Source: Bifidobacterium sp. ESL0732 (GTDB lineage Bacteria; Actinomycetota; Actinomycetes; Actinomycetales; Bifidobacteriaceae). From it: a stretch of DNA of 64,000 nt. The position numbers and the translations under genes are program-made. Each line of letters starts with the position of its first letter. The first letter of the stretch is position 1. Shown here in pieces: positions 21,914-38,459 of this stretch. The notes beneath the pieces were generated by a model, which did not search any database, was not told the DNA's origin, and saw nothing but the letters and a program-made list of their open reading frames with translations. Where the stretch lies: NCBI RefSeq assembly GCF_029395535.1, contig NZ_CP113920.1, forward strand, positions 1,612,001-1,676,000. Reading direction: 5' to 3'.

Positions 21914-23278
21914 TCAGTGAATCCGGCGCCCGGCGCACCAGACGTGCTCGACCTGCCAAGTCTTGGGATCACTGATCAGCAGATCGGCGGCATAACCCGG
22001 CGAGAGTAGACCAAGCGGCGCACCTGTAACCTCGTTCGGACGGTCAAAACCGAATGCTCGGGCCGGCGTCAACGTCGCAGCCTCAACGGCATCAGCAGGA
22101 TCCATGCCGAGCACGTTGACCGCACGCTCGACCGAGTGCTCAAGCAGAAGCGTGGAACCGGCTATGGCACCGTTCGAGACCAAACGGGCATGCCCGCCCT
22201 TCACAGTGACGTCAAGCGCGCCCAGCTTGTAAGCACCGTCCGGGCAATCCGTGGCCGACATCGCATCGGTGACGAAAGCGATACGATGCGGCGCGAATTT
22301 GACCGCCATCTTCAGGACCGGGTTTTGCACATGGAAGCCATCGTTGATCAGCTCGATGGTGACACGGGGATCTTCCACCGCCGCCGGAATCGGACCCGGT
22401 TCACGATGTTTCAGTCCGTTCATCGCGTTGAAGATATGGGTCATGATGCCGGCACCCGCCTCGAAACCTCGCCTGGCCGTCTCGTAATCGGCATCGCAAT
22501 GGCCCACCGCCGGCACCACACCGGCAGCCGCGAACCGCTTGATGGCGCTCAGTCCGTGCGGCAGCTCAGGGGCAATGGTGATCTGACGCAGCGAGCCGTC
22601 GGCCGCTTCGAGCAGTTGGTCGACCAAGTCGTCGGTCGGATCTTTCAGGCAGTTCGGGTCGTGCGCGCCCTTGCGGGAAAGCGCAAGGAACGGCCCCTCC
22701 AAGTGGGCGCCGAGCACATCGGGACGTTTGCTCATCGCAGCCTTGACGTTCTTCAGGTTGCTGCACATCACATCCATCGGATTGGTGATCAGCGAAAGCA
22801 CCTGACGGGTGGTGCCGTGCACCAAATGGCCGGCTCGCGCGATGTCGATGCCTTCCAAGCCGTCGTCGAATGAACGGTTCCAGGAGCCATGAGCATGGAT
22901 GTCAATGTAACCGGGGGTAAGGTTCTTGCCTTGGGCATTGACTTCGGCCACGTCGCCTTTCAGCATCAATGGCGCGATTTCGCTCGAATATGCGTTATCC
23001 TGATTACCAGCGGTATCTTCGGCAACTTTGTCGGGTCTCTCATCGGCAATGCCGAATCCGCGACAGGCTGATATCATAGACATTTCCCCGTTGCCAGTCG
23101 CCGCAATCACACCATCGCGAGCAATGATCCAGAAGCCATGTTCAATACCCCGTGCATCGATTTTCCGCGCGTTTTGTACCACAAGCCAACGGGTCGGCTC
23201 ACCTTCGACGGCTTTTGTGACCTTTCCAACCGTTTGCTCCCTGTCTTCATTTGACATTGCCGCTTCACATTCCTTCAT
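21914..23278 (-). CDS. nagA: N-acetylglucosamine-6-phosphate deacetylase
   Basis: This amidohydrolase (up to 454 aa) converts GlcNAc-6-phosphate to glucosamine-6-phosphate. The metal-binding HAH lies at residues 128-130 in GYIDIHAHGS, followed by GAHLEGPF, GHCDADYE and the catalytic Asp in FVTDAMSATD. It is longer than typical NagA because of about 45 extra residues (about 66-110) between the N-terminal beta domain and the barrel. The start is uncertain: Met1 and Met8 are both possible and neither has a well-spaced ribosome binding site. It lies 30 bases downstream of nagB in the same operon, so both steps from GlcNAc-6-P to fructose-6-P are co-transcribed. Confidence 0.93.
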   Translation of the reverse strand: MKECEAAMSNEDREQTVGKVTKAVEGEPTRWLVVQNARKIDARGIEHGFWIIARDGVIAATGNGEMSMISACRGFGIADERPDKVAEDTAGNQDNAYSSEIAPLMLKGDVAEVNAQGKNLTPGYIDIHAHGSWNRSFDDGLEGIDIARAGHLVHGTTRQVLSLITNPMDVMCSNLKNVKAAMSKRPDVLGAHLEGPFLALSRKGAHDPNCLKDPTDDLVDQLLEAADGSLRQITIAPELPHGLSAIKRFAAAGVVPAVGHCDADYETARRGFEAGAGIMTHIFNAMNGLKHREPGPIPAAVEDPRVTIELINDGFHVQNPVLKMAVKFAPHRIAFVTDAMSATDCPDGAYKLGALDVTVKGGHARLVSNGAIAGSTLLLEHSVERAVNVLGMDPADAVEAATLTPARAFGFDRPNEVTGAPLGLLSPGYAADLLISDPKTWQVEHVWCAGRRIH

Positions 23279-23308: not shown

Positions 23309-24097
23309 TCAGATCTGTTGCCACACCGGCTTGTGAGCGTAGGCGTAGCGATAGTAGTCCTTGTGCGCGAGCTTGGAGGCGGCGGCCTCGTCGACGATGA
23401 TGGTGGCGTGCGGGTGCAGCTGCAGTGCGGAGGCCGGGCAGAAGGCGCTGATACCGCCCTCGCAGGTCTCTTTGACGGCCTCGGCCTTGCCTTCGCCGAA
23501 CGCGAGCAGCACCAGATGACGGGCCTTCATGATTGTGCCGATTCCTTGCGTGATGCAGTGGGTCGGGACCTGGCTGACATCGCCGTCGAAGAAGCGGGCA
23601 TTATCGATGCGGGTCTGCTCGGCGAGCGTCTTGATGCGGGTGCCGCTGGCCAGCGAGGAACCGGGCTCGTTGAATCCGATATGGCCGTCGGTGCCGATGC
23701 CAAGGATCTGTACATCCACACCGCCTGCGGCCTCGATTGCCACATCATATTCGCGCCCCGCGTCCTTGATGGTCTCCAACTTGCCATTAGGCACACGGAC
23801 CTTGGCCGGGTCGAGGCCTAAGGGCTCCACCACCGTGCGGGTGATGGTGCTGCGGTAGGACTGCGGGTGCGCCGGGTCAAGACCGGCGTATTCGTCAAGC
23901 GCGAATCCACGCACCTGGCTGACGTCAAGATGACGCGCCTTGATCTCTGCAGCCAAATGACGATAAGCCGCGAGCGGGCTGGAACCTGTCGCCAAGCCAA
24001 GTACGGCGTTGGGCTTGTTCTCAATAAGATCGGCGACGCACTTAGCGTAGATCTCACCGGCCTCGTCCTCGTTTTTGGTAATGATGATTTCTGCCAT
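23309..24097 (-). CDS. nagB: Glucosamine-6-phosphate deaminase
   Basis: This 262-residue cytosolic isomerase-deaminase converts glucosamine-6-phosphate to fructose-6-phosphate and ammonia. Characteristic motifs are GLATGSSPLAAYRHL (phosphate binding), LDEYAGLDP with the catalytic Asp, and GIGTDGHIGFNEPGS. The length is normal for the family. AAAGGAGA precedes the ATG. It is the first gene of nagB-nagA, and a TTAACTA-containing candidate operator lies about 100 bases upstream, the same motif as at the nearby ROK regulator and ABC importer. Confidence 0.95.
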   Translation of the reverse strand: MAEIIITKNEDEAGEIYAKCVADLIENKPNAVLGLATGSSPLAAYRHLAAEIKARHLDVSQVRGFALDEYAGLDPAHPQSYRSTITRTVVEPLGLDPAKVRVPNGKLETIKDAGREYDVAIEAAGGVDVQILGIGTDGHIGFNEPGSSLASGTRIKTLAEQTRIDNARFFDGDVSQVPTHCITQGIGTIMKARHLVLLAFGEGKAEAVKETCEGGISAFCPASALQLHPHATIIVDEAAASKLAHKDYYRYAYAHKPVWQQI

Positions 24098-24196: not shown

Positions 24197-24218
24197 TTGT
24201 TAACTATACTGACTAATA
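24197..24218. promoter_or_regulatory. Candidate ROK operator upstream of nagB
   Basis: The sequence contains GTTAACTA (24199-24206) followed by ACTAA five bases later. It matches the TAGTTAACTA half-site pattern found at 25973, 33998-34077 and 36066-36086. Confidence 0.6.
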
Positions 24219-24477: not shown

Positions 24478-24515
24478 CCTCGGGAAGAGGAAATATCTCG
24501 TCCGTGACCAGAAAC

Positions 24516-25673
24516 CTACAAAAGATTCAATTTACTTCGTAACACATTAGCCACCGCACCTAATACGGACGTGTCTTCCTTGAGATGAGGGCCGTGCACC
24601 ACGATTTCATCGATAAACCGCGAATGCACCAGCCTGTTGACCTGATTCTGCGCTGCAAGGCAGAAGTGGGCATCGACTAGATTTTCCGGACCGGCTACTG
24701 TCACATCCGTGATATCAGTCATTGCCACAACCATTGCCAACGCCCGTCCAAGCACTTCTCCTGCATGACCTATGACTTCTTCGCGTCGCTCTGGCCAAGC
24801 AGTAATCTGTCGATCGAGTACCGGAGCGGCAATAATCGTCTCAAGACATCCACGTTTGCCGCACACACATTCAGGACCATCTGGGTCAACAACCACATGG
24901 CCGATCTCACCGGCTGTATTGCCTATGCCTCGCACCACGGCATCGGAGACAAGTAGACCTGCCCCTACACCTTTGGCAATCTGTACGAACATCATGCTCG
25001 GAGGGCCAGCCGCGAAGCTACGCTCAGCAAATACACCGCAATCCGCATCGTTTGAGGCATAAACATAGCACCCAAGCCGTGATTCGAGCTTGCCGACAAT
25101 ATCGACGTCCTTCCATCCCAGAAGCGGCGCCTCAATCACCACTCCATTACTGTCAACAAAACCGGGAGTGGCAACTCCCAATCCTAAAAGCGGCAAATCG
25201 TTATCGGCCATCAAAGCCTCACATAGCGTAACCACTTGATTGATTCCAAGCCACTGGCCATCAGCCAAGGAAAGCGATTCGCGATGTAATATGGTGCCTT
25301 TGAGATCACTGACCACACCTTTGATTTCATGACTCTCCGACAAATCTACGCCAATCACAGCCTTCGCCGTCGGATCGAATTCAAGCATTAGCGCAGGCTT
25401 ACCTCGACGCGCCGAGCTTTTATAACCAAGCTCGCGCAGGTAACCGTCACTCATCAAATCGGAGACGACATCAGAAGTAGAAACCTTTGATATCCCAGTA
25501 ACCTTGGCCAGTTCCGCGCGAGAAAGCCGTTCTCCGGAATACAAAGCTCGCAAAATCGCAGTCCGATTGCGCACCCGCACATCGGAAGGCAACGCTCCCG
25601 AAAGGAATCCATCTGACCTTCCGGAAGGTATATGGCCACTTTTATCAGATTGATCCAACTTTCGATCGACCAT
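24516..25673 (-). CDS. ROK family repressor, probable controller of the amino-sugar regulon
   Basis: This 385-residue NagC-like regulator has an N-terminal winged helix (SRAELAKVTGISKVSTSDVVSDLMSDG) and a ROK sugar-binding domain with an intact zinc motif, CVCGKRGCLE. The DLSESHEIKGVV segment replaces the phosphate-binding loop of ROK kinases, consistent with a regulator rather than an enzyme. AGAAGGTG precedes the ATG. Its neighbours are nagBA downstream and a divergent DUF4127 gene. A perfect TAGTTAACTA palindrome lies in the shared upstream region, and related sites precede nagB, the ABC importer and both ROK kinase operons. I infer that this protein binds them, with GlcNAc-6-P or a related sugar phosphate as effector. 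Confidence 0.88.
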   Translation of the reverse strand: MVDRKLDQSDKSGHIPSGRSDGFLSGALPSDVRVRNRTAILRALYSGERLSRAELAKVTGISKVSTSDVVSDLMSDGYLRELGYKSSARRGKPALMLEFDPTAKAVIGVDLSESHEIKGVVSDLKGTILHRESLSLADGQWLGINQVVTLCEALMADNDLPLLGLGVATPGFVDSNGVVIEAPLLGWKDVDIVGKLESRLGCYVYASNDADCGVFAERSFAAGPPSMMFVQIAKGVGAGLLVSDAVVRGIGNTAGEIGHVVVDPDGPECVCGKRGCLETIIAAPVLDRQITAWPERREEVIGHAGEVLGRALAMVVAMTDITDVTVAGPENLVDAHFCLAAQNQVNRLVHSRFIDEIVVHGPHLKEDTSVLGAVANVLRSKLNLL

Positions 25674-26094
25674 AACGCACCTTCTTTTAGTCCAGCATCA
25701 ACACCAAGTATTGAGTACAGCAACACACACTAAGAACAAGGAAAGACCGAGACATCTTTCTTAACGCATCGGCACAAACACTAACCTTACTCCCATAATC
25801 GAGTTTACCAACCCAATACATCGACGACACCATCCAAATCCGCTTCTTTATCGATTGCCCAGCATCATCTAAATTGCTACAAGATACGCTGGCAACCCTT
25901 TTTTCATCCCCGACATAAGAATAAGAGATACGTATCATTGTCAGCATTTCATCTTATCCTACCTCATTAATATAGTTAACTACATTACCAAATATAAGGT
26001 GTGGCTGCAAACAACGTGACCTCGTCTGTACCCAACACCAGTTAGCGTCGGCTTTTCGGTAAAGAAATTTCACGACCGGCAGGAAGGCATCACG
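25674..26094. other. Divergent control region between the ROK repressor and DUF4127 genes
   Basis: About 420 AT-rich bases separate these divergent genes. Besides the palindrome at 25973-25982 I see no gene or RNA structure. Confidence 0.5.
25973..25982. promoter_or_regulatory. Perfect TAGTTAACTA palindrome
   Basis: This 10-bp perfect palindrome lies 112 bases upstream of the DUF4127 start and about 300 bases upstream of the ROK repressor start. It is the cleanest example of the motif repeated across this region. Confidence 0.6.
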
Positions 26095-27597
26095 ATGGCA
26101 CGAATCCTTTTGATTCCACTGGACGAACGACCTTGCAACACGAAGTTCCCCGCGATGATCGCTAAAAGTGGCGGTATACAACTGATCCAACCGAACGACA
26201 GGTTGCTAGGCAATAAAAAACAGCCGGCAGACACAACCGCTCTCAAGGATTTCCTCATCGATCAGGCAAGTAGCACCGATGTTGCTATACTTTCCTTAGA
26301 CATGCTGGTATACGGCGGACTTATCCCCTCACGTCTGCACCACCTAAGCCAAAATGAAGCACTGGCGCGCTTGGAAACGGTTCGCGAACTGAAAAAAGCC
26401 AATCCCACACTGACTGTCTATGCATCAATGTCAATCATGCGCTCTCCCGCTTACAACAGCGACGACGAAGAGCCAAGCTATTACGCAATTCACGGACGCG
26501 ATCTGTTTCGAAGGGCGTACCTTACCGATAAGAAAAGACGTAAAGGGCTTTCCGCTATCGAGCAGAAAGAATTGGACTCTATCGTCATTGCCGAAAATGT
26601 TGTCCAAGATTACGAAAATCGAAAACACATCAACCTGACTGTCAATGCAGCATGCCTCGACCTTCTTTCCGATGGCAGTATCGACTTCCTTGCACTACCA
26701 CAAGACGACTCAAGCCCATACGGATATTCCGCGATTGCACAACAACAGTTGCAAAAAGCGATATCAGCAGCAGGGGTACATGACCAATTGATGGTCTATC
26801 CCGGCTCGGATGAAGTTGCATGTACTTTGCTGTCACGCGCAATATGCTCAATACAGAAGAAAAAGCCTACATTCGGAATCCATTACGCCTCAACTTTGGG
26901 CCCCACACTTGTCCCGCTTTATGAAGACCGGCCCATGTTTGAAAGCCTCAAATCACATGTGATGGCCTGCGGTGGCCGGCTGGCAGATTCCGATGAGCAC
27001 GCCGACATCGAATTAATGGTCAATGCCCCTGGCAAATGCATGCAGGAGGCCAGACAGGCCATACTCAATCGAGACATGACCTACGATTCATTCCGTAATC
27101 TGCCTCAGTTTGAAGCGTCTATCGAACGATATCTGCTAGAAGGCCGACGTGTCGCAGTATGCGACAGCGCCTACTCGAACGGAGGCGATCCACAGTTGGT
27201 TGACGACCTCGATCGCTCAGGCGCACTGGGCGGCCTCATTGGCTATGCGGGATGGAACACTAATTGTAATACATTAGGAACCGTCCTCTCGCAAGCTGTC
27301 ATCGCAGATTCGCAAAACCCGCAAACGAGCGCCAATCTTGTTTACCGCCTCATTGAGGATACGTTCTATCAGACCAAAACTCGCTGGACGATCGCAGGCC
27401 GTGCGAAAGAACACGGCGGTTCATACGAAGACATAATGCCTTGCAACGATTGGGCCGAAACAGAAACCAAAAGCGACCTTCAGAAGCAATATAACAAAAC
27501 GAAACTATCGAAGACACTTCCCGCTTGTATTAGAACGGTACGATTCCCATGGAAACGCCTATTCGAAATCAATTTGGATGTCGATATGGCGGTTTAA
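26095..27597 (+). CDS. DUF4127 family protein, function unknown
   Basis: This 500-residue soluble protein matches DUF4127 by its N-terminal IPLDERPCN (about residues 7-15), the SLDMLVYGGLIPSR stretch near 75-88, MSIMRSPAY near 117, and DDSSPYG near 206. It also has YSNGGDPQLV and GYAGWNTNCNTLG in the C-terminal half. Clusters of conserved Asp, Glu, Arg and His suggest an enzyme. No signal peptide or membrane helix is present, so it would act in the cytoplasm on imported material. AGGAAGG precedes the ATG. Its divergent ROK regulator, shared operator motif and proximity to nagBA, nanE, an ABC importer and a glycerophosphodiesterase suggest a role in glycan breakdown. That role is inference. 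Confidence 0.82.
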   Translation: MARILLIPLDERPCNTKFPAMIAKSGGIQLIQPNDRLLGNKKQPADTTALKDFLIDQASSTDVAILSLDMLVYGGLIPSRLHHLSQNEALARLETVRELKKANPTLTVYASMSIMRSPAYNSDDEEPSYYAIHGRDLFRRAYLTDKKRRKGLSAIEQKELDSIVIAENVVQDYENRKHINLTVNAACLDLLSDGSIDFLALPQDDSSPYGYSAIAQQQLQKAISAAGVHDQLMVYPGSDEVACTLLSRAICSIQKKKPTFGIHYASTLGPTLVPLYEDRPMFESLKSHVMACGGRLADSDEHADIELMVNAPGKCMQEARQAILNRDMTYDSFRNLPQFEASIERYLLEGRRVAVCDSAYSNGGDPQLVDDLDRSGALGGLIGYAGWNTNCNTLGTVLSQAVIADSQNPQTSANLVYRLIEDTFYQTKTRWTIAGRAKEHGGSYEDIMPCNDWAETETKSDLQKQYNKTKLSKTLPACIRTVRFPWKRLFEINLDVDMAV

Positions 27598-27715
27598 AAA
27601 AGCCTACGTCTTTTTGCCTGTTTTATCGAGTCTCTTTACCGGAAGCAACGCCCTCGTTTAGTGGTCGTTGTCTGTGTCACGCAATTACACAGGCAACAAT
27701 CTTAATTACAAAAAA

Positions 27716-29470
27716 TCACTTCTTCAGCAAAATCCAAGCACTTGAGTCTTGTGGAAGTTTCCCAGCGGCAATAAGGCCAGAGGAAGTCAAAAGGATTTTA
27801 CCTGCAGGCATGGTAATAGGCTTGGCACCAAAATTGGTGATACTTGCAAACCAGCGATCATGCTTGTCGACAGTGGGACGGCTATAGGCAATAACATCCG
27901 GACCCAAATCAAGCTCAGCGATGCTCTCATAATCACCGGTGGCAGTGAGCAGCATGGCACGAATCTTCAGCGCGGCGCGGTAGAAATTCAGCATTGAGCC
28001 AGGATCCTCATCCTCTGAATCGACGGCAAAGTCCTTGAACCAGAGCGGCTGAGGGAGATGCAGATCATCGGCGGCACTGCCGTCCGGTTTGACGGCAGGC
28101 GAGAACCCGAATGAAGCCCCTGTGCCAAAGTTCTTATCCCATTCGGCAGGCTGTGGAAGATCAGCGGCGTTCCATGGCAATGGAACACGGCAGCCGTCGC
28201 GGCCCTTGTCGGATTCACTACGGAACTTATTGAAAGCCGTTAAATCCTCAAGATGATCCCACGGAATGTCTGCGACTTCGAACAGGCCCAATTCCTCGCC
28301 CTGATAGATATAGACGGAACCCGGCAAACCCATTTCCATCAGCGCAGCAGCACGTGCACGAAGCGTACCCGAGACTCGATTCTCACAATACGTCTTTCCA
28401 TCGCGCAACAGCCAATCTTTGGCCAACGCAAAATATTGTGGCAATCCATAACGAGTCGCGCTGCGGATAAGATCATGGTTATTCATCACCCAAGTCGTGG
28501 TCGAACCCTTTGTCTCCTTGGCCGCATCCAATCCATCATGGATAGCCCTGCGCATGTCGCCGACTTTCCACAGTGCCGAGGTTAATTCAAAATTGAAAAC
28601 CTGGCCGAGTTCGTCTGGCGAGGCATAGAGATGCTGATGTTCCGGCCTGACCCAAGCCTCTGCGACGGCAAAGCGAGGTGGATCGTATTCATTGAAGACC
28701 TTTCGCCACTCCTTGTAAATATCGTGAACCTCAGGACGGTCCCACAGCGGACTGTCCACTTCGTTCTTGCCATCCCCACCTACTTGATAGTGTTCGGCAA
28801 GCCTGTCAAGCGGCTCACGATCAAGATCTTTGGCCAAGCCGTGTGCCACATCCACGCGAAAACCATCGGTGCCATGGTCACTCCAGAAACGTAAGGTTTT
28901 CTTGAACTCTTCATGAATGTCGGGATTCTTCCAGTTTACATCAGGCTGTTCACGCGCAAAGATATGGAAATACCACTGTCCATCCGGAACACGTTCCCAA
29001 GCCGGACCTCCGAAAAGCGACTGCCAATCGTTTGGCGGAAGTTCGCCATTCTTGCCTCGCCCTTCACGGAAGATATACCGATCACGCGCCGACGATCCGC
29101 GTCCGGCCTTAAGTGCCTCCTGAAAAAATACGTGCCTATTGGAGGTATGGTTCGGAACAATGTCAACAATCACCTTGATATCCACCCCATGTGCCGCTGC
29201 AACCATCTCATCGAAGTCATCCATCGTTCCTAGGCGTGGATCCACGTTTCGGTAATCGTCCACATCATAGCCGCCATCGACAAGAGCCGAGGGATAGAAA
29301 GGCGAAAGCCACACCGCATCGATGCCGAGCTTTTTCAAATAGCCCATTTTTTCGGTAATTCCTGCGATGTCCCCGATGCCGTCCCCATTGACATCCTTGA
29401 AACTGCGCGGGTAGATTTGATAAACGACGGCTTGCTTCCACCAGTCATTCAACAAGTTGTTAGCGCTCAT
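27716..29470 (-). CDS. Alpha-glucosidase, glycoside hydrolase family 13
   Basis: This 584-residue enzyme of the oligo-1,6-glucosidase/alpha-glucosidase branch of GH13 releases glucose from alpha-glucosides. It has YQIYPRSFKDVNGDGIGD (18-35), DIVPNHTS (103-110), the nucleophile Asp207 in GFRVDVAH, the acid/base Glu271 in AVAEAW and the NNHD transition-state motif further on. No signal peptide is visible, so it acts on imported oligosaccharides. The ATG at 29470 is chosen because AAGGAA lies just before it. It is convergent with the DUF4127 gene and has its own promoter region with an inverted repeat at 29522-29542. Subfamily assignment would need a tree. Confidence 0.92.
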   Translation of the reverse strand: MSANNLLNDWWKQAVVYQIYPRSFKDVNGDGIGDIAGITEKMGYLKKLGIDAVWLSPFYPSALVDGGYDVDDYRNVDPRLGTMDDFDEMVAAAHGVDIKVIVDIVPNHTSNRHVFFQEALKAGRGSSARDRYIFREGRGKNGELPPNDWQSLFGGPAWERVPDGQWYFHIFAREQPDVNWKNPDIHEEFKKTLRFWSDHGTDGFRVDVAHGLAKDLDREPLDRLAEHYQVGGDGKNEVDSPLWDRPEVHDIYKEWRKVFNEYDPPRFAVAEAWVRPEHQHLYASPDELGQVFNFELTSALWKVGDMRRAIHDGLDAAKETKGSTTTWVMNNHDLIRSATRYGLPQYFALAKDWLLRDGKTYCENRVSGTLRARAAALMEMGLPGSVYIYQGEELGLFEVADIPWDHLEDLTAFNKFRSESDKGRDGCRVPLPWNAADLPQPAEWDKNFGTGASFGFSPAVKPDGSAADDLHLPQPLWFKDFAVDSEDEDPGSMLNFYRAALKIRAMLLTATGDYESIAELDLGPDVIAYSRPTVDKHDRWFASITNFGAKPITMPAGKILLTSSGLIAAGKLPQDSSAWILLKK

Positions 29471-29521
29471 AGTTTCCTTCTTTTTCATTCGTAGCGGACC
29501 CGAACCTACAACCGCTTCAGA

Positions 29522-29542: not shown

Positions 29543-29607
29543 GGTTGGTAATCAGGCATGCCTTAGATTGCGCCACTTGCTTCTACCCGAATTTTGACGA
29601 ATCGAAT

Positions 29608-29657: not shown

Positions 29658-30776
29658 TTACCGAGCACACTTTGGGACAAAGGCCTCGAAGATGAAACGA
29701 TCAAAACCTTGTGCACTCTGTGACAATTCTTCTTCATTGTGAATCGTATACGTAACAGGCTCAGCACCAAGGCGACGGACAAGGCTCATCTGTATCGTAT
29801 CAAAGCCATGCCACTCATACGCTGCAAAGTCCGGACGGGAAAGCCAGTCAAACCCAAACCAACCGCGAACCCATGTACGCCAATCTTGAGCGCTCACTTT
29901 GCCCAGATCCTGGATATTGTGCAACGGGAATGGAATGGGGTTGGAAAGCTGACCACGACAGACGTCAGGGCAAGCATTACGATACCAACGCATCGCCATC
30001 GCATTGAACGATTCGACAACATAACTGCCGTGATATTCACGTTCATACTCACGCAGCAACGCATTTCCTCGCTCCATAAGCTCATTGTCCTGCGACCGCC
30101 AACCCTGATGATCGAACTTATATTCGACCACAATCGGGACCCGCCCTGCCACCAGATGAAGTACATCGGTAAAAAGCGGCACGTGCTGACTGGCAACGCT
30201 CATGGAAGCCGTCCCCGTGGCACCCAGAGGCTTGGCCTCTGAATCGCCAATCCGGCTCGGTGAAGGGAAAAGAGGGATTTGACAGAGTTCTTCGTAATTG
30301 AGGTCTTCAACACGCCTAGAATCCCCGGCAACTCGCATCAGCTCCGAGTCATGGACCACAACGACTTGATGGTCAGCGGTCAAATGCAAATCTAGCTCAA
30401 TACCAAAGCCGGCTTCACATGCGGCCGCGAATGCGGGGAGGGAGTTTTCCGGAGCAATAGGGACACCTGTCACATCGTCGGCATCGGCTTGTGACAAATC
30501 ATTGCCAAAACCCGCTTGTCTTGCCATTTTACGAGCAAAAGCCACATATTTCGCCGCATCATGGGCATCCGGAGACGTCAGCCCCGATCCTACGTCATGC
30601 AAACCACGATGCGCGTATAAGACATCAGGCACCTTGGGAACCTTGTTGCGCCGTCTTGCCTCGCTCGAACGCGGTGCCATCGCCCATGCGACGAAACCTG
30701 CAGCCAGCACACCCGCCCGCAATGCAGATCCTAGCCAGGAATGCCGTTTGAGAGCAGTTACATTGTGTACAACCAT
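29658..30776 (-). CDS. Glycerophosphodiester phosphodiesterase (GDPD/UgpQ-like), membrane-anchored
   Basis: This 372-residue protein has an N-terminal hydrophobic helix (about 15-33) followed by a GDPD barrel. Catalytic landmarks are YAHRG, APENSLPAF, GIELDLHLTADHQVVVVHD and VEYKFD, which supply the HE/ED metal and acid-base residues. It should hydrolyse glycerophosphodiesters to glycerol-3-phosphate and an alcohol. It is the last gene of an operon with an ABC importer and starts 38 bases after the second permease gene, a layout like ugpBAE-ugpQ. The helix is followed by a basic stretch (SSEARRRNK), so the catalytic domain's side of the membrane is uncertain. Confidence 0.9.
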   Translation of the reverse strand: MVVHNVTALKRHSWLGSALRAGVLAAGFVAWAMAPRSSEARRRNKVPKVPDVLYAHRGLHDVGSGLTSPDAHDAAKYVAFARKMARQAGFGNDLSQADADDVTGVPIAPENSLPAFAAACEAGFGIELDLHLTADHQVVVVHDSELMRVAGDSRRVEDLNYEELCQIPLFPSPSRIGDSEAKPLGATGTASMSVASQHVPLFTDVLHLVAGRVPIVVEYKFDHQGWRSQDNELMERGNALLREYEREYHGSYVVESFNAMAMRWYRNACPDVCRGQLSNPIPFPLHNIQDLGKVSAQDWRTWVRGWFGFDWLSRPDFAAYEWHGFDTIQMSLVRRLGAEPVTYTIHNEEELSQSAQGFDRFIFEAFVPKCAR

Positions 30777-30814: not shown

Positions 30815-31651
30815 CTACTCCTTGATACCTCCGCCTTCCAGCCCACGGAAGAAGTAGCGTTGGAAACAGGCGAAGAAAACGAGAATCGGCACCAGAGAAA
30901 CCACAGCGCCTGCTGCGGTAAGCCTGGGGTCACTGACGAACATGCCTTTGAGCCGATTCATTCCTAAAGTCAATGTATAGTTCTCTTCGTCAGAAATAAC
31001 GATAAGCGGCCAGAGGAAATCATTCCACGCGCCAACGAAAGCGAAAATACCGACCACCGTCATCGTGCCTTTTACTTGCGGAACACAGATATGAATGAAC
31101 TGCTGCCAGATATTGGCACCATCGACTTGCGCCGCTTCCTCGAGCTCTTTAGGAATTGCTTTGAACGCATTGGTCATCAAAATGATGTTGATGGCCCCAC
31201 ACATCCCAGGAAGAGCGACGGCCAGCAAGGTATTCTGCAAGTTGACACTTCTCATAATGAGGAAACGCGAAATGATAACACCTTCAACAGGAATGACCAT
31301 GGTGGTCATGAAAATCAGGAACACCGCTTTGCGCCCTCGCCATTCCAACCTACCAAGAGCGTAGCCGGACATCGTCGAAAACGCCACGTTACCAGCAATA
31401 GAGAGCAGCGCCACGATGGCGGTGTTAAGCATATAACGGAATACCGGAACCTGATGGAAAACATCAATGTAGTTTTGCAATGTGGGTGTCTTAGGAATCA
31501 CATATGGAGGCACAGCATAGACATTGTCTCCCGTGCCTTTGAACGAAAGGGAAAGTTCCCAAACAAATGGGCCAACCAAAAGAACAAACATCAAAATTAG
31601 AGCAATATATTTGACGATTTTGCCAATTGTCACGTTTTTACGGTTCTTCAT
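30815..31651 (-). CDS. ABC sugar importer, permease 2 (CUT1, MalG/UgpE-like)
   Basis: This 278-residue permease has six predicted membrane helices and the MalG-type EAA loop EEAAQVDGANIWQQFIHICVP, which contacts the ATPase. It forms a heterodimer with the permease encoded immediately upstream (two bases between the genes). The C-terminus ends FFRGLEGGGIKE, typical of this class. No ATP-binding subunit gene is present in the window, so a shared MsmK/UgpC-like ATPase encoded elsewhere probably powers it. The substrate is not readable from the permease. Confidence 0.93.
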   Translation of the reverse strand: MKNRKNVTIGKIVKYIALILMFVLLVGPFVWELSLSFKGTGDNVYAVPPYVIPKTPTLQNYIDVFHQVPVFRYMLNTAIVALLSIAGNVAFSTMSGYALGRLEWRGRKAVFLIFMTTMVIPVEGVIISRFLIMRSVNLQNTLLAVALPGMCGAINIILMTNAFKAIPKELEEAAQVDGANIWQQFIHICVPQVKGTMTVVGIFAFVGAWNDFLWPLIVISDEENYTLTLGMNRLKGMFVSDPRLTAAGAVVSLVPILVFFACFQRYFFRGLEGGGIKE

Positions 31652-31653
31652 GA

Positions 31654-32544
31654 TTATTGCCTCCCCCTGGCCTGAATGACTTGCTGAATAATGAGCATGG
31701 CTCCTACGACAAGCAGCACAATCAACGACAATGCGCTGGCATAACCTGTGTGGGCTTCAATACCGGTACCTTCCTGCTGAATAAGCATTGCCATCGTGAT
31801 GTCTTCCCCACCGGGTCCACCCGTACCGTTGGTAAGTACATAAACCTCGCTGAAGACACGGAACGCCGCTATCGTTGAAAGCATCATGATAAGAACCATC
31901 GTCGGGCGCACGCCCGGTATCGTTACATAGAGAAATTGGCGAATCGGCCCTGCGCCGTCAATCGAAGCCGCCTCGTAAAGCGAATCATCGATATTGGCAA
32001 GAGCCGTAAGATAAATGACCATGTAGTAGCCAAGTCCCAGCCAAATCGTCACGAACATCGCTGAAAATAGCGTCATCCAACGGTCGGTAAGGAATGGAAT
32101 TGGTTCACGAATCAAATGCAATGCCTCAAAAAGCGAATTGATAAGGCCTTTCGAATCAAGCAGATTCGTCCAGATCATACCAACAACCACAGCGCTCATC
32201 ACCACTGGCGTATAGAACGAAGTACGGAAGAATCCCATGATCTTCGAATCGCCTCGTACCAAATTCGCCAGAATCAATGGCAGAATGATCATAAACGGTA
32301 CTACACACACCACATAAAGTGTGGAGTTCAGCAGAGCCGTCCAGAAATATTCATCATGGCTTATTTCCACAAAATTATCAAAACCGATAAAGTGGCCTGG
32401 CACCAGCAGCGTCGAATCAGTAAAAGCTAAACGAAAAGTGTTCAATGCTGCAATTATCGTAAATACGAAAACAATCAGAAGAGAAGGAAGAACGAAAAGA
32501 TAGGGGATGATCTTAGTACCGAATGATTGTTTCTTTTCCTTCAT
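31654..32544 (-). CDS. ABC sugar importer, permease 1 (CUT1, MalF/UgpA-like)
   Basis: This 296-residue permease has six predicted membrane helices and the EAA loop YEAASIDGAGPIRQFLYVTIPG. The ATG at 32544 is chosen because GGGAAAG lies nine bases upstream; a TTG three codons earlier is an alternative. It pairs with the next permease. A strong stem-loop at 32565-32599 separates it from the substrate-binding protein gene, which would let the binding protein be made in excess over the membrane subunits. Confidence 0.93.
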   Translation of the reverse strand: MKEKKQSFGTKIIPYLFVLPSLLIVFVFTIIAALNTFRLAFTDSTLLVPGHFIGFDNFVEISHDEYFWTALLNSTLYVVCVVPFMIILPLILANLVRGDSKIMGFFRTSFYTPVVMSAVVVGMIWTNLLDSKGLINSLFEALHLIREPIPFLTDRWMTLFSAMFVTIWLGLGYYMVIYLTALANIDDSLYEAASIDGAGPIRQFLYVTIPGVRPTMVLIMMLSTIAAFRVFSEVYVLTNGTGGPGGEDITMAMLIQQEGTGIEAHTGYASALSLIVLLVVGAMLIIQQVIQARGRQ

Positions 32545-32564
32545 ATTTGCCAACTTTCCCTAAT

Positions 32565-32620: not shown

Positions 32621-33910
32621 TTACTTATCCAACTTCTCGTTGGCGAATTGAGCGGCCTTGTCCAAAGCCTCTTTTGCACTCTGCTTGCCTTGAAGCGCCA
32701 GAGCGATTTGCTGCTTCAGATAAACGCTGCCGCCCTGGTCCGTCAGCTGTGCAGGACGAGCCATGTAGCCATGCTTAACACCATCAAGAGTGATTTTGAG
32801 CGCCTTGCCTTGCAGGTCGTCATCCTTGATATTCTTGTAATAAGGATCATCGAGACCTTTCTTACTGGAAGGATAGGTGTTCGATAACTTGGCGAATTCC
32901 AGCTGGTTCTTATTGTTGGTGACATATTTGACGAACTTGAGAGTCTCCGCCTTATGCTTGGTGGTCGCGCTCACGCTAAGCATCTCATAGCTGACGCTGG
33001 TCGAACGGCCATCGTAGTTGAGCCTCGGACCGACAGTAAGATGATTGTAGAGGTCAGGAGAGTTCTTCTTGAAATCCGCGGCAGAATAGGCGCTACCGGC
33101 CAGGGTCATGATGGAACCACGCTGGAAGTAATTGCCTTGCTGGGACCAATTGGCATCCAATGACTCCGGGGGCATGCCCTTGGACTGATAGAGATCGATA
33201 TACTTCTGCAGGAACTCAACGCCTTTGGGAGAGTTGAAGATGAACTTTGTGTGATCCTTGTTCATGATCGGCACTCCGGCACCCGCGAACTCCATCACCT
33301 GCGGTTGCTGCGAAGTCAGGTAGGCGCCGCATCCGCTCTGAACCATGGTCTTGCCAGCCGCGAAGAAGTCGTCCCATGTCTTAGGCAGCTTGTTCGGGTC
33401 GAGGTTGCACTTCTTCATCACATCTGCGTTGTAATAATACGGTCCGTCATTGACGTACCACGGGAAACCATAGGCACCTTTTTTCAGCTTCTTGCCTTGG
33501 AAGGTCACTGCTTCCCACGCATTGGGCAGGTAGTCATTCTTCGCGTTCGGGTCTTCCTTGTCGATGTTCATCAGCGCCCCAGCCTTGGCAAGGCCAATCT
33601 GATGGACCACGCCGGCATCGACGATGTCCGGCAATTCACCGGAGGCCGCCTGCGAGGAAAGCTTTTCCTCGTAATTGTCAGCGGGCTGATCCATCCACTT
33701 GATACGCACATTGGGATTTGCCTTTTCATAATCCGCAATGAGCTTAGTAAAGTACGGCGTATATTTGTCGTTTTTAAGGTTCCACGTTTGGAAAGAAACT
33801 TGAACCTTGCCGCCTGAGCTCTTGCTGCTCTGGGACCCGCCACACGCGGCGACGGAAGACACCATGGCAGCAACGCCAACAATGGCAATCATCTTCTTCG
33901 ATGAAATCAT
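32621..33910 (-). CDS. ABC sugar importer, substrate-binding lipoprotein
   Basis: This 429-residue extracellular lipoprotein has a signal peptide ending in the lipobox VAAC (Cys23), followed by a Ser/Gly linker and a family-1 solute-binding fold (KVQVSFQTWNLKND, SGELPDIVDAG, YGFPWYVNDGPYYYNADVM). The ATG at 33910 is preferred to an upstream in-frame codon because GGAAGG precedes it. It delivers a carbohydrate or carbohydrate conjugate to the two permeases encoded downstream. The glycerophosphodiesterase in the same operon hints at a glycerophosphate-linked ligand; this is inference. Several TAGTTA half-sites lie 90-170 bases upstream. Confidence 0.93.
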   Translation of the reverse strand: MISSKKMIAIVGVAAMVSSVAACGGSQSSKSSGGKVQVSFQTWNLKNDKYTPYFTKLIADYEKANPNVRIKWMDQPADNYEEKLSSQAASGELPDIVDAGVVHQIGLAKAGALMNIDKEDPNAKNDYLPNAWEAVTFQGKKLKKGAYGFPWYVNDGPYYYNADVMKKCNLDPNKLPKTWDDFFAAGKTMVQSGCGAYLTSQQPQVMEFAGAGVPIMNKDHTKFIFNSPKGVEFLQKYIDLYQSKGMPPESLDANWSQQGNYFQRGSIMTLAGSAYSAADFKKNSPDLYNHLTVGPRLNYDGRSTSVSYEMLSVSATTKHKAETLKFVKYVTNNKNQLEFAKLSNTYPSSKKGLDDPYYKNIKDDDLQGKALKITLDGVKHGYMARPAQLTDQGGSVYLKQQIALALQGKQSAKEALDKAAQFANEKLDK

Positions 33911-33997
33911 CTTTTCACCTTCCTTGTTTTCTTCTCCAATTTGAAGAAAATGTTCAACAACTAAACCACCGAGCGACATTGCCGCTCGTAAGTAAGG

Positions 33998-34077
33998 TTA
34001 GTTAACTATTTTATAATTGTCAACTTAATGAGCTAGTTAAACTGTATTTAACTAAAAGTTTTCAATATAAATAGTTA
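33998..34077. promoter_or_regulatory. Cluster of TAGTTA half-sites upstream of the ABC importer
   Basis: TTAGTTAACTA occurs at 33998-34008, TAGTTA at 34034-34039 facing TAACTA at 34049-34054, and TAGTTA again at 34072-34077. This is the densest array of the candidate ROK operator in the window. Confidence 0.6.
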
Positions 34078-34252: not shown

Positions 34253-34996
34253 TCACCCGATACATTCAGCAAGTTCAGCAATCCTGCGACTGACGTAATT
34301 CTCCAAACGCGCGACAGTCAGATCCTCATAACCGTCGATCGAAGCGAATTGAGGACCTTGTGAAGTGTCTGTAGGTATAAAGGCTGTCTGCGCCAGAGTC
34401 GTGGCGCCCGAGGCGGCAGCGGACTCGAGACCAGTGAAGGAGTCCTCAATAGCAATACAATGCGCCATGGCAAGGGCAAAGTCGGAGTCTTCAACATCGG
34501 TATTGTTGCCCTCACTTTGCACGGTTTCATGTTCGATACCAACCAATCGTGCAGCCGCAAGATAAGGGGCAGGATCTGGTTTTGCAGTCAAATGATCATC
34601 ACCGCAAACACATCCCACAAAAGCCCCCTTAGGAGCTTGTGCCATCAAATTTTCAGCCAACTGACGAGGCGAAGCCGTGACCAGGACCGAAGGGATCTTG
34701 GCATCTGCCAATTGCTGCAACACGTTTTCGACCCCTGGAATCCATGGCATGTGGGCTTTTTCAAGTTCACCAACACATTTGACCATCAAACGTGCGACTT
34801 CATCAACCGGCAACTGCACACCATTCTTGACCACGCGTGCGGCCAACCGTGGAACCGGTTCTCCTGAACACGCCCAGCCGATCTTTTCGGTCCAAAAACC
34901 TCCATGTGTAAGCGAAACGACAATTTCCGCATCATGCCAGTAAGGCTCGGAATCAATAAGAGTACCATCCATATCCCAAAAAACCGCAGTAAGCAT
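34253..34996 (-). CDS. HAD family sugar phosphatase / phosphoglucomutase-like hydrolase
   Basis: This 247-residue haloacid dehalogenase superfamily enzyme has the nucleophile motif FWDMDGTLIDSE (Asp8 and Asp10), a helical cap, the threonine motif VLVTASPRQLAEN, and KPDPAPYLAAARLVG followed by AIEDSFTGLESAAASGA for the Lys and acidic motifs. It resembles the beta-phosphoglucomutase/sugar phosphatase branch. GGAGG precedes the ATG. It is encoded 16 bases after the ROK kinase gene, so the two probably share a transcript. A phosphatase next to a sugar kinase may relieve sugar-phosphate stress or act as a mutase. Confidence 0.88.
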   Translation of the reverse strand: MLTAVFWDMDGTLIDSEPYWHDAEIVVSLTHGGFWTEKIGWACSGEPVPRLAARVVKNGVQLPVDEVARLMVKCVGELEKAHMPWIPGVENVLQQLADAKIPSVLVTASPRQLAENLMAQAPKGAFVGCVCGDDHLTAKPDPAPYLAAARLVGIEHETVQSEGNNTDVEDSDFALAMAHCIAIEDSFTGLESAAASGATTLAQTAFIPTDTSQGPQFASIDGYEDLTVARLENYVSRRIAELAECIG

Positions 34997-35012: not shown

Positions 35013-36008
35013 TTAACGACTTTGTTGATCAACCGTTGTACGGTCTTCTGTAAGATAAGCCGCCCCGAGCGCTCCGACCGGGGCATCATTTGCAACAAGA
35101 CGCAGCCGTTTGTCCATTCTTAGCGATGCTACGAAATCGGAAGATGCCGCAAGCCGCGATATCGCACTATTCACGCAATCCAGCAGAGGCTGCCCTACCT
35201 GACTGACTCCCCCGCCGAACACAATCTGAACAGGGTCGAGCGTCAGCGTAAGCATCTGGACGGTATGCGCCAAACCCATGCCGAAACGTTCATAGATTTT
35301 AAGGGCATTCGTATCACCGGCAGCCGCCTTCGCCATGAAGTCTTGGGCTGGGTAGCCTTGCGCAACCGGCCATTGCTTTGCCAGTGCCACGCCCGAAACG
35401 ACAGTCTCCACGCAACCCCGCTGTCCACAAGCGCAGGGCTCCCCACCAGGTTCGATGATCAAATGGCCTATCTCACCGGCGACACCGGTGGCACCCCTCA
35501 TAATCCTGCCATTGACAATGACTCCAGCAGCCACTCCCGTACCGATATTAAGAAATACGAAATTGCCTTTGCCGTGACGCGAGAGACGATACGCGCCAAG
35601 AGCCGCAGCATTCACATCATTCTCGACTACAACCGGACGATGAAAACGATCTGTCAGAATCTTGCCGAGCGTTAGTTCATCAACATCAAGATTCAGTGCA
35701 TTGCTTACCCTGCCGCTGGACACATCCACCGTTCCGGGAATGCCCACGCCAATGCTTTCAAGCTCAAAGCCATGGCCATTGCGAACAGCAACGTGATGCA
35801 ATGCTTCTGTAATAGTACTTACTATTCCTTCGACAACAGCCCTTTCGCCACGTTGTGTCGGTCTGCTCAATTGCGCAATAATATGCCCGACACAATCGGT
35901 GACCACAACGAGGACTTTGGTGCCACCTACGTCTACTCCGACGCGAAGAACGGAAGAATCATCCGAATTTGTGGCATAATTTTGACCTTGTTCGTTGTCT
36001 TTCTTCAT
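35013..36008 (-). CDS. ROK family sugar kinase (glucokinase-like)
   Basis: This 331-residue ROK protein has no helix-turn-helix. It keeps the kinase phosphate loop DVGGTK, END for the catalytic Asp in VVENDVNAAALGA, the sugar-binding GEIGH and the zinc motif CACGQRGCVE, so it should phosphorylate glucose or an N-acetylhexosamine. It precedes a HAD phosphatase gene in a two-gene operon and is divergent from a second ROK kinase gene at 36397. The shared region carries a TTAGTTA-N6-TTAACTGA inverted repeat (36066-36086), linking it to the proposed ROK regulon. Confidence 0.88.
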   Translation of the reverse strand: MKKDNEQGQNYATNSDDSSVLRVGVDVGGTKVLVVVTDCVGHIIAQLSRPTQRGERAVVEGIVSTITEALHHVAVRNGHGFELESIGVGIPGTVDVSSGRVSNALNLDVDELTLGKILTDRFHRPVVVENDVNAAALGAYRLSRHGKGNFVFLNIGTGVAAGVIVNGRIMRGATGVAGEIGHLIIEPGGEPCACGQRGCVETVVSGVALAKQWPVAQGYPAQDFMAKAAAGDTNALKIYERFGMGLAHTVQMLTLTLDPVQIVFGGGVSQVGQPLLDCVNSAISRLAASSDFVASLRMDKRLRLVANDAPVGALGAAYLTEDRTTVDQQSR

Positions 36009-36396
36009 CGTGCTTGTCCTGTCTCAACCCGCAATCATGGTGTCCTTGAAGCAGGTTATCTTTGTTTAGTTAGGAACATTAACTGATTATGGCACAAAAT
36101 TGTCTAAAGTTCAAATTATTTAGTAAGTTTTCTTTTTGTGCAAGATAAAAGAATGAATCGGGGTAAACCTTTGGCGGGAGCTTTCCGAAAGCAAATACGA
36201 CAACTCATGTTTCAAACAACAGGTTATTGAAGATTTAACCGGACTGGAACATAGCATGACACTGACAAGGTGGCAGAAGGGTTACTGACAAACAGGCATA
36301 TTCATGAAAATACGACAGAAGTTATTGTCATGCCATAATACAATAGTACAAATTCGAAGACGCAGAGCAGTCGTCCTCTTAACAAAAGGATCAATG
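36009..36396. other. Divergent control region between two ROK kinase operons
   Basis: About 390 AT-rich bases contain the operator-like repeat at 36066-36086 and a GGTTA-N9-TAACC inverted repeat at 36222-36240. No gene is supported. Confidence 0.5.
36066..36086. promoter_or_regulatory. Candidate ROK operator between the two ROK kinase genes
   Basis: TTAGTTA (36066-36072) and TTAACTGA (36079-36086) form an inverted repeat with a 6-base spacer, about 60 bases upstream of the minus-strand ROK kinase gene. Confidence 0.6.
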
Positions 36397-37485
36397 ATGA
36401 GCAATAATAGTCGAACCCAATACGCGATGGAAGAGAAAAACATTGTGTTTCGTATCGAAAAGTGCTCTATTCTCGCTTTCGATATTGGGGGAACCAAAAT
36501 TGCTTCCGGTCTGGTGACCTTACCTAAAACCAACGGTGCAGGAACAACCGACAGTTCGGATGGAAGTAATCGGCAAATAGATAAACAACCCGGCGTCATC
36601 CTGTCGGCCAAAATCCCCACCTTGGCCGGACGTGGCGGTGACGATATAATCTCTCGGCTGGTAAAGTTCACACAGGAACAACTCAGGGAATGCAAGCAAT
36701 GTGGGATTACCCCAGATGCCATCGGCATCGGTTCGGCGGGTGTGGTTGACAGCTCAACAGGAACAATTCTGACAGCCACAAATCTCATTCCCGGATGGGC
36801 CGGGCAACACTTGGCTGATGCGCTAGAAAAGACAACAGGTTTGCCTGTGCACGTCATTGGGGACGTGGGGGCTCACGGCCTTGGAGAAGCAAAGTATGGC
36901 GCAGGGCGCGGGTACAACAGCGTACTTTCGGTGGGTGTGGGTACCGGTATCGGCGGAGCGTTCATCGAGGATTGGAAACTTTGCGAGGGGAGCCACTACG
37001 CAGCCGGCAATATCGGACACATGCCACATCCGCTTGGGCTTGGGATACGCTGCTCCTGCGGTGCAAAAGGACACATCGAACCAGTGGCCTCCGGTACTGG
37101 ACTGGCGACTTTATATAACCGGATGAAGGACCTTATCCTGACCGACGACGAAAAGAATAAAGTGCCTGCCTTGAGCAACGGCAAAGAGGTGAGCGATCTG
37201 GCCTCAAGTGGCGATCCAACAGCCATAGCCGTTATCCAAACCAGTGCACATGCGTTGGGCGAGTGCATCGGTGGGGCATGCAATCTCATGGATCCTGAAG
37301 TGGTGGTCGTCTCTGGGAGCGTGACGCAAGCCGGTCTGTTGTGGTTTAACCCATTATTGGAGGGCTTCAAAGACAGTGCACTTCCTGCAATACGCGATAC
37401 TCCATTGTTGCAGGGTTCGCTTGGAAACGAGGCACCACTGATTGGAGCAGCCGTGGGTGCCATACAATCGATGTGCGCTGCTTAA
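36397..37485 (+). CDS. ROK family kinase, probable N-acetylmannosamine kinase
   Basis: This 362-residue ROK kinase has the phosphate loop DIGGTK, GIGSAGVVD, DVGAHGLGEA, the GHMPHP sugar-contact region and a zinc-binding CSCGAKGHIE. The Asp expected in the ROK END motif appears here as GDVGA. The ATG at 36397 is chosen because AAAAGGA lies six bases upstream; longer in-frame starts lack such a site. Only 80 bases separate it from nanE, the next step of ManNAc catabolism, so ManNAc to ManNAc-6-P is the best guess. GlcNAc or glucose kinase activity remains possible. Confidence 0.82.
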   Translation: MSNNSRTQYAMEEKNIVFRIEKCSILAFDIGGTKIASGLVTLPKTNGAGTTDSSDGSNRQIDKQPGVILSAKIPTLAGRGGDDIISRLVKFTQEQLRECKQCGITPDAIGIGSAGVVDSSTGTILTATNLIPGWAGQHLADALEKTTGLPVHVIGDVGAHGLGEAKYGAGRGYNSVLSVGVGTGIGGAFIEDWKLCEGSHYAAGNIGHMPHPLGLGIRCSCGAKGHIEPVASGTGLATLYNRMKDLILTDDEKNKVPALSNGKEVSDLASSGDPTAIAVIQTSAHALGECIGGACNLMDPEVVVVSGSVTQAGLLWFNPLLEGFKDSALPAIRDTPLLQGSLGNEAPLIGAAVGAIQSMCAA

Positions 37486-37565: not shown

Positions 37566-38240
37566 ATGAATCAGATCATCGAACAACTCAAAGGCGGCCT
37601 CATCGTCAGCTGTCAGGCATACCCGGGAGAACCATTGCGGCATCCCGAAACCATGGCGCAAATGGCGATGGCGGCAGAAATCGGCGGCGCTTCGGCCATA
37701 CGCTGCCAAGGGCTTGCGGATATCGCGGCCATCAAAGGACAGGTGAAGATACCGGTCATCGGTATCTGGAAAGAGGGGGACGAAGGCGTCTATATCACCC
37801 CCACCCTGCGGCATGCCCGTTGCTGTATGGCAGCCGGAGCGGATATCATCGCGCTGGATGCCACCCGACGTCCCCGGCCAGACGGACTGACCTACGCCCA
37901 AACCGTAAAGGCCTTGCACCAGGACGGCGCAATCGTCATGGCCGATTGCGGCAGTGTCGGCGACGCTCGGCAAGCCGTTGAAGCAGGCAGCGACATCATC
38001 TCCACAACGCTGTCTGGCTATACCGGCGAACGACCGAAAACCGACGGCCCCGACTTTGCTCTGCTCAAATCGATGGTTGCGGAATTCCCGAACATGCCGG
38101 TGTTCTGCGAAGGACGCATCCACACACCCGATCAGCTCACCGAAGTCATGAACTGCGGGGCCTGGGCAGCGGTGGTCGGCACTGCCATCACCCATCCGAC
38201 CTCCATCACCAGCTGGTTCAAGGCACGACTGAACCGTTAG
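37566..38240 (+). CDS. nanE: N-acetylmannosamine-6-phosphate 2-epimerase
   Basis: This 224-residue TIM-barrel epimerase converts ManNAc-6-phosphate to GlcNAc-6-phosphate, the substrate of NagA encoded at 21914-23278. NanE signatures are GGLIVSCQA at the N-terminus, IGIWKEG, ADIIALDAT, ADCGSV, TTLSGYT and the C-terminal FCEGRIHTP and VVGTAITHP. GGAAAGGAAG precedes the ATG. It follows the ROK kinase gene. No N-acetylneuraminate lyase or sialidase gene is in the window, so ManNAc may arrive from a source other than sialic acid. Confidence 0.93.
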   Translation: MNQIIEQLKGGLIVSCQAYPGEPLRHPETMAQMAMAAEIGGASAIRCQGLADIAAIKGQVKIPVIGIWKEGDEGVYITPTLRHARCCMAAGADIIALDATRRPRPDGLTYAQTVKALHQDGAIVMADCGSVGDARQAVEAGSDIISTTLSGYTGERPKTDGPDFALLKSMVAEFPNMPVFCEGRIHTPDQLTEVMNCGAWAAVVGTAITHPTSITSWFKARLNR

Positions 38241-38357: not shown

Positions 38358-38459
38358 AACAGCCAAGCGGATATTGTCAATATGACAGCAATATTTGCAG
38401 ACAATGACCTGAGATCAGTGTCAGGCGAACCCGCATATGCGGCAAACGAAAGGAATACA

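Follow-up and report, generated by a model that had tools for sequence, protein, structure and literature searches.

Gene content of the DUF4127 locus

We examined a 64,000-nucleotide stretch of the Bifidobacterium sp. ESL0732 genome (the window), in which the open reading frame at 26095–27597 encodes a protein of the Pfam family DUF4127 (PF13552). The match covers positions 1–488 of the 489-position profile and scores 505 bits (E 2.1e-151) against a Pfam gathering cut-off of 27, confirming the assignment made earlier from the letters alone. A genome search found the gene in single copy. Predicted strand structure starts right at the N-terminus, with MARILLIPLDERP, and there is no signal peptide, consistent with the cytoplasmic location already proposed for it. 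The locus contains the following features.

21914..23278, minus strand: nagA, N-acetylglucosamine-6-phosphate deacetylase (TIGR00221, 235.4 bits, above cut-off)
23309..24097, minus strand: nagB, glucosamine-6-phosphate deaminase (TIGR00502, 259.9 bits, above cut-off)
24197..24206, plus strand: one-mismatch operator-like sequence, 100 bp before nagB
24516..25673, minus strand: ROK-family regulator with N-terminal HTH (PF00480 and HTH matches), divergent from DUF4127
25973..25982, plus strand: perfect palindrome TAGTTAACTA, operator-like, 112 bp before the DUF4127 ATG
26095..27597, plus strand: DUF4127 protein, 500 aa, cytoplasmic (PF13552, AlphaFold2 model, no signal peptide)
27716..29488, minus strand: GH13 alpha-glucosidase-type enzyme (PF00128, 314.6 bits)
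29658..30776, minus strand: glycerophosphodiester phosphodiesterase, GDPD (PF03009)
30815..31651, minus strand: ABC permease 2 (52% identical to a Gardnerella DUF4127-operon permease)
31654..32553, minus strand: ABC permease 1 (63% identical to a Gardnerella DUF4127-operon permease)
32621..33979, minus strand: ABC transporter sugar-binding protein (PF01547; 41% identical to its Gardnerella DUF4127-operon counterpart)
33999..34008, plus strand: second perfect copy of TAGTTAACTA, 20 bp before the ABC binding-protein gene
34045..34054, plus strand: one-mismatch operator-like sequence before the ABC binding-protein gene
34253..34996, minus strand: HAD-family phosphatase (PF00702/PF13419)
35013..36008, minus strand: ROK sugar kinase, no HTH match (PF00480, 205 bits)
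36304..37485, plus strand: ROK sugar kinase before NanE, NanK-like by position (PF00480)
37566..38240, plus strand: NanE, N-acetylmannosamine-6-phosphate 2-epimerase (NF002231, 292.9 bits, above cut-off)
38382..39692, plus strand: GlcNAc 2-epimerase (AGE) family protein (PF07221, 412 bits)

The minus-strand unit adjoining DUF4127 encodes the ABC transporter, GDPD and the GH13 enzyme, followed by the HAD phosphatase and a ROK kinase; beyond it on the plus strand lie the other ROK kinase, NanE and the AGE-family protein. The gene set for catabolism of N-acetylmannosamine (ManNAc), consisting of NanE, a kinase, NagA and NagB, is thus present in the window, although the kinase at 36304–37485, whose true start may be downstream, matches N-acetylmannosamine kinase models below their cut-off. 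This NanE is the sole one in the genome. Among NCBIfam models the AGE-family protein matches D-mannose isomerase best, though with a score under that model's cut-off. The GDPD within the ABC/GH13 operon is a second bifidobacterial-type copy, the genome's other copy being 56% identical.

Between the ROK regulator and the kinase that precedes NanE, both included, third-position GC is mostly 0.46–0.56, compared with 0.64–0.80 in the flanking genes; the binding-protein gene, at 0.65, is an exception within the island. The low values suggest that the island was acquired from elsewhere.

Regulator and candidate operator sites

The sequence-only reading described the gene as divergent from a NagC-like ROK repressor. 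The divergent arrangement and the ROK assignment were both borne out, whereas the NagC label applies only loosely, with a score of 115 bits against an NCBIfam cut-off of 650. A second ROK regulator-like protein in the window (19095–20543, 482 aa, beside a PfkB kinase) scores higher against NagC, at 175 bits. The regulator of the DUF4127 locus is 64% identical to the ROK protein of one relative and 34–42% identical to those of others; it adjoins nagB, and the close relative G008 has two counterparts of it, one 38% and the other 64% identical. In B. infantis, the available text of PMC9599254 describes a NagR regulon in which a ROK regulator beside nagB-nagA controls ABC importers and amino-sugar catabolism. 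The window regulator resembles it in adjoining nagB-nagA, but is about 35–39% identical to the ROK proteins beside nagB in relatives (loci L192–L194, L197, L199, L204 and L207). The regulon table, as given in that available text, contains no DUF4127 protein.

The perfect TAGTTAACTA that had been noticed in the DUF4127 promoter region is indeed present. Allowing up to one mismatch, the window contains four such sites where 0.26 would be expected, and none of 100 dinucleotide shuffles of the window reached four. The perfect palindrome occurs twice in the 2.39-Mb genome, both times at this locus; because the reversed control occurs three times, this count is not unusual by itself, and we dropped it as sole evidence and used clustering in its place. 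Sites with up to one mismatch number 13 across the genome (52 for the reversed control). Four of these fall within 9.9 kb (window positions 24197–34054), one before nagB, one before DUF4127 and two before the gene for the ABC binding protein. Assuming uniform placement and ignoring local base composition, the probability of this clustering is about 2e-7 for the 9.9-kb stretch, or about 1e-4 under uniform placement after a rough correction for the choice of stretch.

Around 21 other ROK loci no site with up to one mismatch to TAGTTAACTA was found, GTTAAC did not occur in 19 kb of locus L210, and sigma-70-like promoters in the DUF4127/operator stretch did not rise above shuffled expectation. No amino-sugar genes were seen in two other one-mismatch regions of the genome (about 2126 kb and 1923–1931 kb), and one such site lies upstream of a GH3-type gene, as judged from its translation. 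The binding-protein promoter also contains TAGTTAAACTGTATTTAACTA at 34034–34054, which reads as an inverted repeat itself. Judged by the shared candidate operator sites, DUF4127, nagB and the ABC transporter are likely to be co-regulated; a ROK protein acting as repressor at TAGTTAACTA would keep nagBA, DUF4127 and the transporter genes silent until an amino-sugar signal released them. With sites common to nagB and the ABC transporter, and with NanE at 37566–38240, the tie of DUF4127 to amino-sugar catabolism that had been drawn from operator and position holds at this locus.

DUF4127 loci in the same genus and in Gardnerella

DUF4127 was found in 3 of 112 same-genus genomes, the window genome counted. 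In Gardnerella piotii, a single run of genes encodes a ROK kinase (40% identical to the kinase at 35013–36008), a substrate-binding protein, two permeases, DUF4127 and a GNAT protein, with GH20 and a CE2/GDSL-type esterase on the far side of a ROK regulator; the transporter is orthologous to that of the window, with identities of 41% for the binding protein and 63% and 52% for the permeases. Another same-genus locus (L105, genome G480) places DUF4127 amid an oligopeptide-type ABC transporter, a BadF-type kinase and beta-lactamase-family hydrolases, and also encodes CT_A_B/CT_C_D proteins and D-glutamate cyclase, a setting that resembles a locus for muropeptide catabolism.

Neighbourhoods of close relatives

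The genome-neighbourhood survey that had been proposed as a check was run on the 80 best of 257 matches in named genomes, a set biased to close relatives; counts given for 83 loci include plasmid records and the window locus. Genes were called as longest ORFs, which missed frames in 6 of 89 loci (L015, L019, L031, L070, L071 and L091), and for the 80-locus counts the positions of four missed frames were set by hand. The survey recovered an amino-sugar context in related loci. NanE lay within 6 kb of DUF4127 in 45 of the 80 best of 257 matches, where about 0.5 in 80 would be expected assuming 2 NanE copies per 4 Mb. Counted by genus or group the figure is 28 of 45, and in 25 loci the distance is no more than 150 bp. 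It was absent within 6 kb in 35 of these 80 close relatives. The link is present in Bacillota, Actinomycetota (Collinsella) and Spirochaetota (Treponema), and in Vibrio NanE is found about 9 kb from DUF4127 in the same locus. Because the constant partners are an importer and NanE, we place DUF4127 in amino-sugar catabolism and, where NanE accompanies it, on the ManNAc branch.

RpiR regulators (49 of 83 loci) and the FAD oxidoreductase PF12831 (38 of 83) were the other frequent neighbours, followed by ABC permeases (30), ROK proteins (25), PTS EIIC (24), GH38 (20), HAD (18) and AXE1 (15). The loci with the FAD-dependent oxidoreductase (L043, L051 and 36 others) often contain GH38 as well.

A HAD phosphatase was found in 17 of 20 loci having only PTS genes for import and in 0 of the 60 others. 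A ROK kinase was found in 0 of 20 PTS-only loci, in 12 of 32 ABC-only loci and in 10 of 26 loci with neither importer type; the 2 loci with both types had none. NanE was kept in 16 of the 20 PTS-only loci. Since these PTS-only loci have NanE and no ROK kinase, the PTS phosphate could end on ManNAc-6-P, as would suit DUF4127 being a 6-phospho-sugar enzyme that works downstream of PTS import or of a kinase, whether as a 6-phosphoglycosidase or as a sugar-phosphate isomerase. The many conserved Arg residues of DUF4127 agree with such a role, and there is an analogue in ChbE/MupG of family GH170, from a PTS chitobiose operon (PMC12791066, available text). We nevertheless consider it improbable, given that the core is common to secreted relatives, that the window member pairs with an ABC transporter, that the 10 PTS-type genomes searched encode ROK proteins at other loci, and that the HAD phosphatase, which is fused to DUF4127 in Listeria riparia, may strip the phosphate first. 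The HAD phosphatase of PTS loci may remove the PTS phosphate before DUF4127 acts, but the lack of a kinase in these loci argues against phosphate removal before the DUF4127 step.

The Listeria riparia fusion (L072, 9191–11518) joins a HAD domain (PF08282) and DUF4127 in one 776-residue frame. In Lederbergia galactosidilytica (L083, 10001–11548) a stop codon lies inside the DUF4127 frame, a possible pseudogene or sequencing error.

Several loci encode acyl-modifying enzymes. AXE1 occurs within 6 kb of DUF4127 in 15 of 83 loci (adjacent in 14) and a CE2-type esterase in 4; a GDSL hydrolase adjoins DUF4127 in Massilimicrobiota and Thomasclavelia, an AAC(3)-type acetyltransferase precedes it in Treponema, and the GNAT gene follows it in Gardnerella. 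These neighbours would fit an enzyme that de-acylates (as N-deacetylase or esterase) or otherwise tailors an imported amino-sugar chain, trimming it instead of cutting glycosidic bonds. Against this, the varied esterases and acetyltransferases already provide acyl chemistry while DUF4127 is the constant member, and DUF4127 itself has no invariant His and a fold with no clear deacetylase match; a de-acylating or tailoring role is in our estimate unlikely.

The operon next to DUF4127 in the window points in a further direction. It carries shared operator-like sites and encodes an ABC transporter, a GDPD that is an extra copy, and a GH13 enzyme, and the latter two suggest glucosyl or glycerophosphoryl parts in the substrate, not ManNAc. 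The disaccharide ManNAc-GlcNAc is the linkage unit of wall teichoic acid. The locus might then degrade teichoic-acid-like glycerophosphate glycans, GDPD and GH13 stripping the chain and DUF4127 cutting the ManNAc-GlcNAc linkage disaccharide. We hold this to be very improbable, since only 2 of 83 DUF4127 loci have a GDPD gene within 6 kb, a frequency at which we also rejected GDPD or teichoic acid as a general partner of the family. As for the phosphodiesterase activity among those suggested earlier for DUF4127 itself, its one specific pointer is the GDPD gene of this neighbouring operon.

Two forms of DUF4127

For a less biased view we used a sample of 398 Bacillota genomes, 63 of which carry DUF4127 (62 above the family cut-off). 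One locus was taken from each of 60 of these 63 genomes, that of G763 being a second copy; G529 (already present as L065), G618 (contig edge) and G785 (below cut-off) were excluded. Among the 60 random loci, NanE was found within 6 kb in 4, ABC genes in 17, the FAD oxidoreductase in 15 and PTS genes in 0, and any of the sugar-transport or sugar-enzyme genes looked for occurred in 19 (ROK or RpiR alone excluded). With sugar genes in only 19 of 60 random loci, the family taken in its entirety is not tied to sugar loci, and we rejected the proposition that all its members are sugar-locus enzymes.

A FastTree phylogeny of 148 rows was built after dropping fragments shorter than 380 residues, with long branches flagged; the 60 random loci gave 56 rows, some loci giving two, and L132 was identical to L068. 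The clade of the window protein comprises 89 rows, of which 51 are from NanE loci, 32 from other sugar loci and 5 from neither, with 1 unlabelled, so that 83 of 88 labelled rows fall in sugar loci. Outside the clade, 41 rows have no such genes, 13 have sugar genes and 1 has NanE, with 4 unlabelled. Rows of the random sample alone show the same division, with 7 of 8 inside the clade in sugar loci compared with 10 of 48 outside. DUF4127 genes elsewhere lacking a link to sugar loci had been named as evidence that would count against the amino-sugar reading; they do make up much of the family, whereas the clade of the window protein keeps the link.

A hydrophobic N-terminal extension was found in 0 of 97 NanE or sugar-locus rows (with the motif found in 96) and in 36 of 46 rows without sugar genes. 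We define an amino-sugar clade of DUF4127 by its NanE or sugar-locus grouping and lack of a signal peptide, and the window protein belongs to it. The tree accounts for the difference in NanE frequency between the two surveys (45 of 80 and 4 of 60), since this cytoplasmic clade belongs to sugar loci, while the other clades are mostly secreted and lie outside them. A large part of the DUF4127 proteins of the Bacillota loci L128–L187 is secreted or membrane-anchored and outside sugar loci, and some of these adjoin SLH-domain and D-Ala-D-Ala carboxypeptidase genes.

D-Ala-D-Ala carboxypeptidase genes near secreted members would fit an action of DUF4127 on cell-wall recycling products (muropeptide sugars of the MurNAc type) and not on ManNAc glycans. 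So would the G480 locus, with its BadF-type NagK-like kinase, oligopeptide ABC transporter, beta-lactamase-family proteins, D-glutamate cyclase and CT_A_B/CT_C_D proteins, as would the MurR/RpiR-family regulators in 49 of 83 loci and a Deinococcus locus with a NagZ-annotated gene and a GH20-like gene. The constant partner, however, is NanE, and MurNAc catabolism is not known to need NanE. RpiR regulators also fit the sensing of ManNAc-6-P, which they serve too according to the available part of PMC12713135, and profile comparison with the exo-N-acetylmuramidase NamZ gave a probability of 0.2%. Action on recycling products is on balance doubtful, and we rate it as improbable.

Conserved residues and fold

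The sequence-only reading listed conserved Asp/Arg/His clusters. Among 69 DUF4127 relatives, 48 residues are kept in at least 95%, and the clusters are really of Asp, Glu, Arg, Asn and Trp; the Asp and Arg parts of the description stand, and none of the 48 residues is His. D10, R12, G74, S79, R80, D239, D357, N388, T389, N392 and G395 are each present in 46 of 46 rows lacking sugar genes. By comparison, E277 occurs in 97 of 97 NanE or sugar-locus rows and in 31 of 46 of the others, and R279 in 91 of 97 and 7 of 46, respectively. Because secreted members have the same core residues, dependence on ATP or PTS phosphate is unlikely, which in turn favours hydrolase chemistry. The split into secreted and cytosolic forms points to one chemistry on both sides of the membrane. 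Comparison of the 69 relatives showed no charged position in the core that separates PTS-type from ABC-type members, and with no charged active-site candidate we rejected the idea of specificity residues dividing the two.

Structure prediction, which had also been proposed, yielded a confident AlphaFold2 model (69 sequences, pLDDT 96.4, pTM 0.94) without bringing out a clear relative in the PDB. Foldseek of the full model against the PDB gave a best E of 2e-4 at a TM of 0.22. VIA gave a best Z of 8.0 (rmsd 3.1 over 121 residues), with pyridoxal kinase at Z 7.7, values in the range that VIA describes as usual for a model lacking any clear match. The first 258 residues form a Rossmann-like sandwich, with Z up to 9.4 (rmsd 5.0 over 182 residues) to mixed families. 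Neither the protein nor its profile had a sequence match in the PDB. We gave no functional weight to the PDB matches (pyridoxal kinase, periplasmic binding proteins, GDSL, xylose isomerase), which reflect common alpha/beta arrangements at low TM or middling Z.

Proposed role

The tie of the DUF4127 locus to amino-sugar genes is well supported, and the window protein very probably has some role in amino-sugar catabolism. That it acts on the ManNAc branch is a reading we favour with less assurance, as the window NanE lies 10 kb from DUF4127 on another transcript. Judged from sequence comparison, the most likely activity is that of a cytosolic glycan hydrolase freeing ManNAc from an imported oligosaccharide, where both the glycosidic hydrolysis and the identity of the sugar as ManNAc are presumptive. 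The ABC transporter (30815–33979) would import a ManNAc-containing oligosaccharide, DUF4127 would split it to give free ManNAc, a ROK kinase would convert ManNAc to ManNAc-6-P, NanE would convert this to GlcNAc-6-P, and NagA and NagB would feed GlcNAc-6-P into glycolysis. This mechanism in full, an ATP-independent cytosolic hydrolase in a catabolic cassette for such an oligosaccharide, is tentative, and we put it at somewhat below an even chance.

A broader proposal is that DUF4127 founds a new glycan-hydrolase family without a known structural relative, with secreted and cytosolic forms, the cytosolic form being an N-acetylmannosaminidase with which gut and soil bacteria feed on bacterial wall polymers that contain ManNAc (for example teichoic acid linkage units or secondary wall polysaccharides). 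It is conceivable, though on the unlikely side. DUF4127 has no known function although it was present in 63 of the 398 Bacillota genomes sampled, and the clade linked to NanE and to sugar importers suggests a concrete class of substrates. In the literature searched, which was queried for the family itself, for mannosaminidase, for ManNAc in connection with teichoic acid and for ManNAc gene clusters, there was no study of the family and no paper naming DUF4127 or containing the word "mannosaminidase"; a DUF4127 enzyme that cuts ManNAc glycans would fill this mannosaminidase gap.

Comparison with known systems

The locus resembles the sialic acid/ManNAc branch (NanK-NanE-NagA-NagB) in its kinase, NanE, NagA and NagB genes, and differs in that DUF4127 is a constant extra enzyme beside NanE in many loci. 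The GH170 6-phosphoglycosidases MupG and ChbE are likewise cytosolic enzymes coupled to the import of amino-sugar disaccharides (PMC12791066, as far as the accessible text goes), but DUF4127 belongs to a separate Pfam family and its window member accompanies an ABC transporter and not a PTS.

Another amino-sugar glycosidase family that was formerly a DUF is that of NamZ (GH171, PF07075). DUF4127 showed no detectable profile similarity to it: hhalign against 14 NamZ sequences returned the 0.2% probability, compared with 100% for secreted DUF4127 proteins as positive control, and homology to NamZ was rejected.

A parallel in position comes from G008, which has no DUF4127. Its slot between nagB and the AGE-family gene is occupied by GH20, a ROK kinase, the ROK protein 64% identical to that of the window, and a different ABC transporter, whose permeases are merely 27% identical to the window's. 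The two cassettes thus share the slot, the ROK kinase, an ABC transporter and a related ROK protein, with GH20 where the window has DUF4127.
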